From NCBI GenBank assembly GCA_001794195.1, contig MGJI01000007.1:1-32179 (forward strand): a stretch of DNA of 32,179 nucleotides, in the 5' to 3' direction. The translations under genes and the position numbers were made by a program. This document shows positions 3 to 30,240 of the stretch, piece after piece. Positions within the stretch are counted from its first letter, which is position 1. Every line of letters begins with the position of its first letter. This DNA is from Candidatus Yanofskybacteria bacterium RIFCSPHIGHO2_01_FULL_44_17 (GTDB lineage Bacteria > Patescibacteriota > Minisyncoccia > 2-02-FULL-40-12 > IGHO2-01-FULL-4-A). The notes below the pieces were generated by a model, which was given only the letters and a program-made list of their open reading frames with translations, had not been told where the DNA came from and made no database searches.

Positions 3-1289
3 TTCGAGGATGATATCGTTGAACAGCTTGAGTGGCTGGGTCTAAAATGGGACGAATTTTATAAGCAGAGCGACCGTACTAAAATTTATTCCAAATACAT
101 TCAGAAAATCTTAGATAGCGGTAAGGTATTTTGGTGTTATCACAGCGAAGACGAGCTAGAAAAAGAACGAGAAGAACTGGCAGATGCCAAGAAGCCGCCG
201 GTGCATTGGTGTGAGCATAAAAAACAAGAAGCATTAAACACGAAGCATGAAGCAAAAAATGGAATCATAAGATTGGCAATTGATCAAAATTCAACGAGAA
301 GAATTAAATTTCAAGATATAATCCGCGGGGAGATTGAATTTGAAGAGAAGCTTCTGGGCGATATAAGTATCGCAAAAAACCTTGAAACACCGCTTTATCA
401 TTTTGCTGTAGTCATTGATGACTATGAAATGGACATTACGCACGTAATCCGTGGCGAGGACCACATCGCCAACACGGCCAAGCACATATTGATACAGGAG
501 GCGTTGGGATTTGATCAGCCGCAATATGCTCACATGCCGATGATACTTGCTCCAGACAGGTCTAAATTATCAAAGCGTCACGGTGCGACAGCTGTTGCTG
601 AATATCGTCAGCTTGGTTATCTGCCCGATGCTCTAGTGAACTATATGGCACTGCTTGGTTGGACTCCCAGAAATAGCCAGCGAGAAATAATGACCGCGAA
701 TGAGATTATCCAGCAGTTTGCTATTGAAGATATACATAAGTCGGGGGCGGTTTTTGATATTAAAAAATTGAATTGGATCAACTCACAATATATAAAAATG
801 GAGAACGATGAAGGCTTATGCAGGCTTGCCCGCCCCTTTATAGAAAAGTATTTTGGTCAGCAGGATAAAGAGCCGATGCTTAAAATTGCGCCGCTTTTGC
901 GTGAACGTCTGGAATATTTTGATCAAGTCAAAGAATTCCACTTTTTTTTCAAAGAGCCCGAGTACGATTCGAGTTTGCTTCGCTGGAAATCCAGAGGCGA
1001 TGATGAAATTCGTGAGTCTTTGCAAAAAGTTAAGAAAATAATAGAAAATTGGGACGGTGAAGACAAGTCAGTATTAAGATCGGAGCTTGATGGCTTGGGT
1101 AAGGGAACAGGAGACCCTTCGACCCGTTCGACGGGCTCAGGGCAGGATAGGGGATTAACCTATTGGCCGCTTCGCGTTGCTTTGAGTGGCGAGAAGGCGT
1201 CTCCCGACCCCGTAGAATTAGCATATATTTTGGGCAAAGAAAAAACCCTGGAGAGGGTTGATGCGGCCGTTGCTAAATTAATGAGCTAG
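3..1289 (+). CDS. gltX: Glutamyl-tRNA synthetase, 3' part (5' end outside window)
   Basis: Class I aminoacyl-tRNA synthetase that charges tRNA-Glu (or tRNA-Gln in organisms using the amidotransferase route). The reading frame is open from base 3, so the ORF-track start at 201 is an artefact and the N-terminal Rossmann half with the HIGH motif lies upstream of the window. Visible are FEDDIVEQLEWLGLKWDE, the conserved VIRGEDHIANTAKH segment, the KMSKS-type loop (DRSKLSKRHG), LLGWTPR, and the C-terminal anticodon-binding part ending with YWPLRVALSGEKASPDP. Directly before YWPLR sits an unusual segment, DPSTRSTGSGQDRG, encoded by a dispersed-repeat-like sequence (separate entry). The last 12 bases overlap the convergent hypothetical gene. 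Family assignment is firm; Glu versus Gln specificity cannot be judged. Confidence 0.95.
   Translation, partial: FEDDIVEQLEWLGLKWDEFYKQSDRTKIYSKYIQKILDSGKVFWCYHSEDELEKEREELADAKKPPVHWCEHKKQEALNTKHEAKNGIIRLAIDQNSTRRIKFQDIIRGEIEFEEKLLGDISIAKNLETPLYHFAVVIDDYEMDITHVIRGEDHIANTAKHILIQEALGFDQPQYAHMPMILAPDRSKLSKRHGATAVAEYRQLGYLPDALVNYMALLGWTPRNSQREIMTANEIIQQFAIEDIHKSGAVFDIKKLNWINSQYIKMENDEGLCRLARPFIEKYFGQQDKEPMLKIAPLLRERLEYFDQVKEFHFFFKEPEYDSSLLRWKSRGDDEIRESLQKVKKIIENWDGEDKSVLRSELDGLGKGTGDPSTRSTGSGQDRGLTYWPLRVALSGEKASPDPVELAYILGKEKTLERVDAAVAKLMS
1115..1146 (+). repeat. Short palindromic repeat inserted in frame in gltX
   Basis: The sequence reads cccttcgacccgttcgacgg followed by gctcagggcagg. It folds as nested arms ccct/aggg and cccgt/acggg. 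It encodes PSTRSTGSGQ in a stretch where GluRS proteins normally run directly into the WPLR motif. A shorter relative (ccttcaactatgctcagg on the coding strand) sits in alaS. From memory, repeats of the form ccttcgac...gctcagg are scattered in many CPR genomes; this was not searched. Confidence 0.65.
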
Positions 1290-18131: not shown

Positions 18132-18173
18132 TACGGCCGCCCGCTTAAGAGATAAACTTTAGTGAGCCCATTA

Positions 18174-18346
18174 TCATTTCGAGAGTTCTGTCGAAGCCGA
18201 GCGGGCACGGTGTTGTGGTTTAATTTACGCAGAGCGAATGAAGTGAGCGGGTGGTAAATTATGCCACAACGAGCGAGGCGAGACAAAAAGTGCAGTGAAG
18301 CTTGCATCCCCGCTGGGGATGCTAAACAGAACGTCTCGAGAAATGA
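18174..18346. repeat. MITE-like palindromic element, copy A (173 bp)
   Basis: The ends are inverted (tcatttcgagag ... ctcgagaaatga). A second internal pair is gttgtggtttaatttac / gtaaattatgccacaac. A third is cgagac / gtctcg, enclosing a perfect hairpin gcatcccc-gct-ggggatgc. Copy B at 22354-22518 is nearly identical apart from a few substitutions and an 8-bp difference in the middle. It lies 21 nt beyond the mreB stop codon. ORF-track hits here are shadows. Confidence 0.88.
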
Positions 18347-18367
18347 TGAGGGGCAGACAAACAAAGT

Positions 18368-22307: not shown

Positions 22308-22353
22308 ATGTTTTTTAATCGCAATGAGCAAAAAGATGCTAGTGAGCCCCTTG

Positions 22354-22518
22354 TCATTTCGAGAGTTCTGTCGAAGCCGAGCGGGCACGGTGTTGTGGTT
22401 TAATTTACGCAGAGCAAAACGGGTGGTAAATTATGCCACAACGAGCGAGGCGAGACAAAAAGTGCAGTGATGCTTGCATCCCCGCTGGGGATGCCAAACG
22501 GAACGTCTCGAGAAATGA
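22354..22518. repeat. MITE-like palindromic element, copy B (165 bp)
   Basis: Same structure as copy A (18174-18346), including terminal and internal inverted pairs and the ggggatgc hairpin. It is 8 bp shorter, where copy A reads gaatgaagtgag and B reads aaaa. It ends 11 nt from the rpsI stop codon, so it lies at the 3' end of the ribosomal operon and could act as its terminator or 3' mRNA structure. Confidence 0.88.
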
Positions 22519-22529
22519 TGAATGGCGAG

Positions 22530-28494: not shown

Positions 28495-30240
28495 CTAGTC
28501 AATGGTTGCGCGTATGCGCCTTGTGCCGGCAGAAACGGCTTCTTCTTTGGTTATTTTTAACTGACCGATTGCGCCAGTATTGGTTACATGCGGGCCGCCG
28601 CAAAGTTCGCGTGAGAACGGTACTTCGGCGGGCTCAGTGCCACCAATTGTAAATATATTCACAGTTGGTGGATATTTTAATTTGAAAAATGCCAGTGCAC
28701 CTGATTTGATCGCCTCCTCATATGACATCTCTTTTTTGGTAACTGTGTAATCTTCTTTGATGGCTCCGTTCACCATGTCCTCAACTTGTTTAATTTCTTC
28801 TGGAGTCATCTTGCGCGGAAATGTAAAATCAAACCTAAGCCTCTCGGCGGTAATGTCCGACCCTGCCTGATGGACTTCTTCGCCAAGTACCTTGCGCAGT
28901 GAGGCGTGCAGCAGGTGCGTGGCTGTATGCAGTCGAGTAACTTTGGCCAGTTCTTCTTCGTTGCCAGCCTTGAGCTCGCCAGTATCCAATATTAACCCAT
29001 GTCCACCGAATTTTTTTTTCGAACCTTCTCGAGATTTGGCTTGGTGTTTTTTAAACTCTTCGTCAAAAGATTCTCTCGTCAATTCGGTAGCTTTTTTCCC
29101 AGCAATTTCTTTGACTACTTCATATGGTAAGCCGAAACTTTCATACAGTCTAAAGGCTTCTGCTGCACCTACGCTGTCCATAATATCCAGCTCCTTTAAT
29201 CCCTGCTGAAGCGTTTTTTCAAATCTTTCTCTTTCACGGTCAAATTCATAAATTATTTCATTGGCATTTAGTTTCGGATAATATTGTCCATAAATCTCAA
29301 CAATCTTAGCAAAAATGTCATGCATCAACGTTTGATCCGACTTGGACATGTAATTAATGACTCGCCGCATTAATCGTCGTAGGACATAACCCTGATCCTT
29401 GTTTGACGGCCTTACGCCGTCAGAAATTAAAAATGAGATAGATCTGGCGTGATCAGCTACTATTCTTTTTGTTCGTATATCTAATTCGAGTGGCGCGAGC
29501 TTTATTATCGGTTCGAATAGGTCAGTTTCAAAAATATTATTTTTTTTCTGCATAACCATCGCCAGGCGTTCAAGGCCCATGCCGGTATCAATACCTGGCG
29601 ATTTCAACGGCTCAACGGCTTTTGCCGTTGAGCCGTTTAGGCAATAGTACTGATTAAACACCAAGTTCCAAACTTCAACCCCATTTACGTAAATTTCCGT
29701 TGTTGGTCCGCATGGGCCTTCGTCGCCAGTCGGTCCCCAAAAGTTATCTGACCTGCCCATTATCCTGACCCCAATATTTGAATTAAGTGATTTCCATATC
29801 TTTTCTGATTCTTCGTCGGCCGGTACTTCATTTTCTCCGGCGAATACCGAAACATAATCAATTTTTAGCCCTACTTCTTTAACTATAAAATCGTGGGCGT
29901 ATTCAATGGCTTCTTTCTTCCAATAACTTGTCCTGAGCATAGTTGAAGGACCTCCGAATGAAAAATTACCCAACATTTCAAAAAAAGTCAGATGAGATTC
30001 GTCCCCTACCTCATCTATGTCTGAGGTGCGTATGCATTTTTGAATTGAAGCGACATTCAATGAACCAAAATCTTTCATGGGGTCGGCTTCGCCGGTATAG
30101 TATGGCTTGAATTGCTGCATGCCGGCGGTAGTAAAGAGCACCGACGGATCAGTCGGCAAAAGTGAAGAGGATGGAACAATCTTGTGTCCTCTGCTCTCAA
30201 AAAACTTGAGAAATTTGTCACGAGTTTCAGCGTGGGTCAT
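28495..30240 (-). CDS. alaS: Alanyl-tRNA synthetase, compact form without beta-barrel and C-Ala domains
   Basis: 581 aa against about 875. The class II catalytic core is complete: motif 1 region FTTAGMQQFKPYYTG, motif 2 RTSDIDEVGDESHLTFFEML, GPCGPTTEIY and motif 3 DTGMGLERLA. The editing domain follows after only ~40 residues, with both zinc motifs (HTATHLLH and CGGPHV) and SAGTRRIRA. The beta-barrel normally between them and the C-terminal dimerisation/C-Ala domain are absent. The protein ends with a clean TGA-type stop downstream of RRIRATID. Two in-frame repeats occur: GPSTMLRTS replaces a single residue between FSFG and the YWK helix, and a hairpin encodes part of LNGSTAKAVEPL. Translation starts 2 nt after the small membrane ORF; no SD. 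Confidence 0.93.
   Translation of the reverse strand: MTHAETRDKFLKFFESRGHKIVPSSSLLPTDPSVLFTTAGMQQFKPYYTGEADPMKDFGSLNVASIQKCIRTSDIDEVGDESHLTFFEMLGNFSFGGPSTMLRTSYWKKEAIEYAHDFIVKEVGLKIDYVSVFAGENEVPADEESEKIWKSLNSNIGVRIMGRSDNFWGPTGDEGPCGPTTEIYVNGVEVWNLVFNQYYCLNGSTAKAVEPLKSPGIDTGMGLERLAMVMQKKNNIFETDLFEPIIKLAPLELDIRTKRIVADHARSISFLISDGVRPSNKDQGYVLRRLMRRVINYMSKSDQTLMHDIFAKIVEIYGQYYPKLNANEIIYEFDRERERFEKTLQQGLKELDIMDSVGAAEAFRLYESFGLPYEVVKEIAGKKATELTRESFDEEFKKHQAKSREGSKKKFGGHGLILDTGELKAGNEEELAKVTRLHTATHLLHASLRKVLGEEVHQAGSDITAERLRFDFTFPRKMTPEEIKQVEDMVNGAIKEDYTVTKKEMSYEEAIKSGALAFFKLKYPPTVNIFTIGGTEPAEVPFSRELCGGPHVTNTGAIGQLKITKEEAVSAGTRRIRATID
29606..29637. repeat. 32-bp perfect hairpin inside alaS
   Basis: 14-bp arms aacggctcaacggc/gccgttgagccgtt with a tttt loop, encoding part of NGSTAKAVEP just before the DTGMGLERLA motif. 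The segment is about three residues longer than in E. coli AlaRS as I recall it. Confidence 0.75.
29927..29952. repeat. ccttcaac...gctcagg repeat in frame in alaS
   Basis: On the coding strand ggtccttcaactatgctcag gacaag has arms gtcct/aggac and encodes GPSTMLRTS. It is related to the gltX insert, which also encodes a PST start. Confidence 0.65.

Follow-up and report, generated by a model that had tools for sequence, protein, structure and literature searches.

A 24-nt dispersed repeat inserted in frame in the AlaRS gene of a Candidatus Yanofskybacteria genome

Protein-coding palindromes have been described in Rickettsia as an oddity. Specifically, the RPE families (RPE-1 to RPE-7), together with the WPE of Wolbachia, are palindromic repeats found in frame in the genes of conserved proteins; the published reports (PMC3767692, PMC2229807, PMC3733652) include tRNA pseudouridine synthase B, PheRS beta and tRNA ribosyltransferase-isomerase among the hosts, and describe the inserts as tolerated in solvent-exposed regions. 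The GTAG and CGTC REPs are stem-loops of 20–40 bp which, according to PMC3733652, are mostly intergenic and sometimes intragenic, tRNA synthetase genes included. As to REP/RAYT, PMC2817692 and PMC8266576 present short palindromes that are perhaps non-autonomous mobile DNA.

In this work we analysed a stretch of 32,179 nt (hereafter the window) from contig MGJI01000007.1 of Candidatus Yanofskybacteria bacterium RIFCSPHIGHO2_01_FULL_44_17, whose AlaRS gene carries one copy of a repeat of about 24 nt. This element resembles the RPE-like kind in two respects: it lies in frame in AlaRS, GltX, RpiB and SHMT, of which homologues without the insert exist, and one and the same repeat is found in several unrelated genes as well as between genes. 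However, the RPEs of the first kind span about 105–146 bp, the ATGAC motif attributed to RPE-4, RPE-6 and RPE-7 in PMC3767692 is absent from the consensus of our element, and the core of the latter, unlike RPE and WPE, is found in many phyla. With respect to the GTAG and CGTC REPs, neither tag is present at either end, on either strand, of the consensus YCCTTCGACNNGCTCAGGRCAAGC, and genes are not avoided; the CGTC families, according to PMC3733652, likewise lack an association with transposase genes. The likeness to REP/RAYT lies in the short, perhaps non-autonomous mobile palindrome, but here there is no link with Y1 transposase genes. In addition, the cyanobacterial small dispersed repeats (SDR) of Elhai and colleagues (2008) are reportedly mobile, 21–27 nt long and located also within genes; we liken them to the element by size and genic location.

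In the open-access literature searched, we found no description of the element sequence, of its peptide forms, or of a palindromic repeat of this type in Patescibacteria or Parcubacteria, and no paper that combines REP-associated tyrosine transposases with Patescibacteria. The element belongs with the protein-coding palindromic repeats, but it is shorter, without GTAG or CGTC tags and without a linked Y1 gene. The presence of the AlaRS insert, together with that of the same repeat in many core genes of relatives, suggests a spreading DNA element that is tolerated by proteins. We consider it probable that the AlaRS segment GPSTMLRTS is a recent copy of this dispersed repeat of about 24 nt, which enters genes as readily as the intergenic DNA of the lineage.

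The insert in the AlaRS gene

The alaS gene of the window (28495–30240, minus strand) encodes an AlaRS of 581 aa and is the sole AlaRS match in a genome of 674 kb with 96.5% completeness. The initial annotation proposed that this protein had gained about eight residues, read as GPSTMLRTS, at a point where NFSFGDYFK would be expected. By aligning it with the AlaRS of relatives, we found the insert, in the context FEMLGNFSFGG-PSTMLRTS-YWKKEAI, to be unique among the 30 proteins: PSTMLRTS is absent from all the other 29, in which FSFG(G/N/D/Q/E), or a close variant, continues directly into Y(W/F/L/G)K. In place of the expected FSFGDYFK, the relatives mostly read FSFGGYWK or FSFGGYFK. The first G of GPSTMLRTS is native, so that the gain does amount to eight residues, but these are PSTMLRTS. 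What would have spoken against an insertion, an ancient AlaRS feature common to many relatives and unlike other repeats in its nucleotides, was seen neither in this alignment nor in the genome searches described below.

At the nucleotide level, the 24-nt insert (29926–29949, minus strand) consists of the codons CCT TCA ACT ATG CTC AGG ACA AGT between the flanks GGA GGT and TAT TGG, and in a codon-level comparison the codons around it agree with the empty site of the relatives. When the junction was searched for in 379 genomes of the phylum, allowing one mismatch, the element was found at the AlaRS site in none of the 378 others; three further single-mismatch matches turned out to be unrelated sequences. 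Since the insert is preceded by GT and ends in GT, its placement can slide by 2 nt (29926–29951). This GT is the longest direct repeat flanking the insert, no longer duplication being present, and the letters would also allow a 22-nt element with a target duplication of 2 nt on its flanks. The segment is confirmed as a real insertion of repeat DNA.

To place the insert in the protein, we used the closest solved relative, the Methylomonas AlaRS (9JC7). In this structure, as reported in PMC12143591, Phe89 of motif 2 stacks on the ATP adenine and Arg68, also of motif 2, contacts the alpha-phosphate. In the alignment, the insert comes after the residue matching Gly98 of 9JC7, nine residues past Phe89, which places it immediately C-terminal to motif 2, close to the active site and outside the ATP-binding residues. 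The proposal of an insertion within the conserved class II core thus holds as regards the core of an essential enzyme, but the insert is located just after motif 2, not inside it. A single-sequence AlphaFold2 model had a mean pLDDT of 35 and was set aside.

The motif 2 Arg (R71) and Phe (F87), GIDTGMGLERLA, HTATHLLH and CGGPH are all intact in the protein. Taking into account these preserved class II and editing motifs and the single AlaRS match in the genome, the insert-bearing AlaRS is presumably the working enzyme of this genome. It would remain active because the insert would form a loop that protrudes after motif 2, ahead of the helix that follows, and the insert is probably neutral. The 30 aligned AlaRS span 546–627 aa, and that of the window stops after the editing domain; the C-Ala domain is seemingly missing from the AlaRS of this lineage.

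The repeat family and its distribution

The initial annotation called for a genome-wide search for similar sequences and stated that the same repeat type occurs in gltX. Searched for as an exact 20-mer with up to three mismatches, the sequence was found only at the AlaRS locus within the window's own genome, while relaxed patterns (CCTTCGAC, a short loop and GCTCAGG) revealed a family. Its exact members amount to 194 copies in 40 of 58 related genomes, against one for the reversed-pattern control, with 0 to 16 copies per genome and none in 18 of the 58. Of these exact copies, 144 were placed on genomes, a set in which G016, G050, G051, G052 and G055, for example, are not represented. In 143 distinct contexts the consensus is the 24-nt YCCTTCGACNNGCTCAGGRCAAGC, beyond which the flanks show no strong bias. 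The loop measures 2 nt in 97 of these copies and 3 nt in 34, the latter making a unit of 25 nt. The window copy, TCCTTCAACTATGCTCAGGACAAGT (29926–29950, minus strand), is one of these 3-nt loop variants, and in addition differs from the consensus by two transitions.

A scoring profile built on 144 related copies gave 28.3 at the AlaRS site, while the maxima of 20 shuffled windows used as background ranged from 7.9 to 16.6; chance is therefore excluded. The same profile and the alignment identified a copy in gltX, the second host gene of the window (3–1289, plus strand, with the 5' end outside the window), which bears out the statement on this gene. Specifically, two overlapping matches, scoring 30.2 and 29.4, make up a copy at 1115–1147 (plus strand) that contains an inner 9-nt repeat (TTCGACCCG/TTCGACGGG) and encodes PSTRSTGSGQ. 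The protein has about 11 extra residues compared to GltX of the same genus, and the copy is absent from the 29 other aligned GltX. An old AlaRS loop, a protein-level feature, a chance match or an assembly artefact would be an extremely unlikely explanation of the segment: no point in support of these readings was found, and an old loop or chance is contradicted by the absence from 29 of 29 other AlaRS and from 378 of 378 other genomes, by a profile score far above the shuffles, and by the occurrence of the element elsewhere, both in other genes and in other genomes. The dispersed repeat inserted in frame, as first proposed, is instead what both the AlaRS alignment and the 194 exact copies of the family indicate.

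The segment had also been described as palindromic. In the family the palindrome shows as covariation of the outer pair, not as a strong hairpin in the window copy: the latter is a partial palindrome only, with 5-bp arms (GTCCT/AGGAC) and an asymmetric core. Folded as RNA, this one copy does not surpass shuffled sequences (z 0.41), and folded as DNA it does so only modestly (z −1.56 on one strand and −1.76 on the other); a strong hairpin in the single copy is unsupported. Across the 143 copies, the first base can pair with the base after AGG (positions −1/+1) in 85%, compared to 52% in shuffled sets, none of 2000 shuffles reaching 85%; the pair is mainly C-G (77 copies) or T-A (43). The inner core being fixed by the search pattern, compensatory changes are readable at the outer pair alone, and its covariation is a sign of pairing at the nucleic-acid level.

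Beyond the lineage, a 17-nt core was found, among the matches listed, in Bacteroidota, Actinomycetota, sphingomonads, other Proteobacteria, Chloroflexota, Acidobacteriota and Cyanobacteria, and also in candidate phyla such as Staskawiczbacteria and Liptonbacteria, the phylum names being those to which we take the genera to belong. This search has 15 fixed bases and some single matches may be due to chance; it shows breadth, not frequency. The tails following the core, compared by eye in 73 of the 80 loci listed, differ: RCARGC is the form seen here, many sphingomonads and some Chloroflexota have RYGAACGG, and several Bacteroidota have RTGAC. Extended by RCARGC to its full 23 nt, the element was present in 23 of the 379 genomes searched in the phylum, against 0 for the control.

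A core common to several phyla is what would be seen if the element were a functional DNA site under selection (for uptake, segregation, recombination or as an RNA signal), with its presence in genes being incidental. We consider this very unlikely, given that the copy number is low and uneven (0 to 16, none in 18 of 58 genomes), that both orientations are used, and that empty sites are filled by insertion, not by point mutation.

Host genes, reading frames and recurrence within protein families

Inside ORFs of at least 150 aa we found 104 of the 144 placed copies. In the loci that were fetched, the corresponding figure is 93 of 133 copies, compared to 74.4% of random points in the same loci; the in-ORF share is near that of random points and thus shows no avoidance of genes, in contrast to classical extragenic palindromes. 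The host ORFs, 100 in number, match 99 Pfam families. Host names were assigned with NCBIfam for 30 of the 100 ORFs, at E 1e-10 or better, five of the 30 remaining without a hit. Among these scanned ORFs, the hosts include DnaG, DnaB, PolA, PolX, RecR, Tgt, MiaA, TsaE, an RluA-family enzyme, RsmH, TrpRS, a PheS-like protein, an IleRS-like fragment, GatB (in three genomes), DnaK, TypA, MurE and ribonucleotide reductase.

Five of the six frames of the element are free of stops, and the sixth contains TGA. Their use is unequal (48, 23, 10, 10 and 6 of 97, counted without the methionine aminopeptidase copies and the tandem array of L124 described below), and the residues that precede copies in the helix-forming frames are more helix-prone than those preceding copies in the PST frame (p = 0.003). 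Both the unequal use and the helix preference are expected if selection filters the inserted peptides. The usual length, a multiple of three, combined with five open frames, would often add about eight residues and leave the gene unbroken, and the surviving copies would be those tolerated by the host protein.

Within one protein family, AlaRS itself, 7 of the 30 genes, including that of the window, hold ten copies, which are spread over four regions and show three different pairings of frame with orientation. The copy behind motif 2 is found in the window only; copies lie after VSVF in L021 and L032, after EIYVN in L021, L032 and L033, and in the editing-domain TIG...FSREL loop, ahead of FSREL/FSKEL, in L022 (opposite strand), L026, L028 and L032. 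These copies are translated as PSTSSGQ, ALRQAQG or PELVEG, which are different frames or strands of one DNA sequence. The use of other sites, frames and orientations in the six other AlaRS genes indicates that what inserts is a piece of DNA and not a protein segment. Exact copies in AlaRS number six against 0.45 expected (P = 8e-6), an excess that may reflect tolerant loops rather than targeting. The same TIG...FSREL loop of the window AlaRS contains a further match on the antisense strand (28621–28644, plus), encoding GTEPAEV with a score of 18.3, which is a probable decayed second copy of the element in alaS. Two matches stand outside the ten: that of L027 (PSNKDQ) is native sequence, and that of L042 is too decayed to call.

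A comparable situation was observed in RpiB, in which one site is occupied in both orientations in several genomes, reading ALRQAQ (L373), TLRLAQ (L374) or ALSLSK (L382, L385), and the RpiB of the window's own genome (L376) has a decayed-looking version at the same site. The net gain is just four residues (+12 nt) in L373, L374 and L385, while one AlaRS site gained 30 nt. Compared to solved structures, SHMT has eight extra residues, TrmD 15, and PGK, HisRS and FolD four or five. To account for the net gains that differ from 24 nt, one has to invoke indels after the insertion, imprecise ends or replacement of part of the site.

The exact core was also noted in three methionine aminopeptidase genes (L084, L296 and L363), where it is read PELVEG. 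The protein of L084 shows no change in length compared to the solved structure, and the three cases are probably native matches (or replacement), L296 and L363 being judged by the same local sequence. The RecG-like copy of L017 also looks native and was left out of the insertions. Separately, the same family is hit at the same position in different genomes in three sets (L313/L321/L358, L104/L335 and L283/L341); these shared positions may be either inherited or repeatedly inserted.

Movement of the element and its significance

The element would be selfish or neutral, not useful, and would be copied as a single-stranded hairpin in the manner of REPs, through either a trans-acting enzyme or template switching. 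Such a single-stranded hairpin intermediate is, in our judgement, the most likely one.

As for the enzyme, candidates are the Y1 (RAYT/IS200-like) transposases encoded in these genomes, which would make the element a strict-sense REP. Its short, imperfect palindrome with a covarying foot and the lack of a long target duplication fit this idea, as does the occurrence of Y1_Tnp genes in 31 of the 58 genomes, the window's own included. We examined 45 Y1 transposase loci, which amount to about 138 kb and include three that were retrieved twice: no flanking repeats were found, and the loci together contained a single copy, with one mismatch. Moreover, at least five copies occur in 8 of the 27 genomes without a Y1 match, the number of elements and that of Y1 genes do not correlate (Spearman 0.20, p = 0.14), and the consensus lacks a GTAG or CGTC tag. 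On the basis of the 45 loci and the copy-number test, the Y1 transposase is ruled out as a flanking partner, and its role as the mover of a strict-sense REP is unlikely.

A spread without any dedicated transposase, through template switching during replication or through the integration of short single strands primed by the palindrome, appears doubtful, though slightly less so than the Y1 reading. It would also yield tandem arrays and partial replacements, and it agrees with the variable net gains, the inner 9-nt duplication of the gltX copy and the absence of a linked gene. Arrays with a 24-nt spacing were seen in G004, G172 and the cyanobacterial contig L133. However, a 17-nt core with distinct tails across phyla has the appearance of a sequence that is recognised, rather than of an accident during replication. 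One array, at L124 669–782 (G004), contains five tandem 24-nt copies within one ORF, in frame as repeated ALSLSKEP. This ORF resembles NAD-dependent DNA ligase, a family matched by one of the 100 ORFs; the assignment was made by reading the sequence.

Returning to the preferred reading, a mobile repeat tolerated by the proteins it enters, its consequences can be outlined at two levels. In the small-genome relatives, a repeat even shorter than those described recurs in proteins of replication, repair and translation, and one copy sits at the margin of the AlaRS catalytic core. It provides many natural insertion experiments in essential enzymes, independent insertions into a single site in more than one frame, and a marker that can be counted when asking how such small elements move although no transposase is evident. 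Caution is also called for in annotation, as peptides such as PSTSSGQ, ALRQAQG and ALSLSKG, when met in unrelated proteins, represent translated repeats and not domains. More broadly, and as a tentative proposal, the element may be a mobile unit of DNA found throughout the bacteria, exactly eight codons long and open in five of six frames, that acts as a general source of eight-residue inserts in essential proteins and spreads by an undescribed mechanism with no linked transposase. If so, it would supply ready-made inserts, PSTSSGQA in loops and ALRQAQG/ALSLSKG at helix ends, with a core common to phyla and tails specific to lineages, and we would know of no shorter protein-coding mobile repeat.

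Finally, another repeat, intergenic and about 190 nt long, occurs in the window at 18160–18354 and 22340–22526, with 92–96% identity. A search of eight relatives found none, and a third copy (87%) is located on another contig of the genome (C21:17083–17271); this repeat is possibly a MITE.
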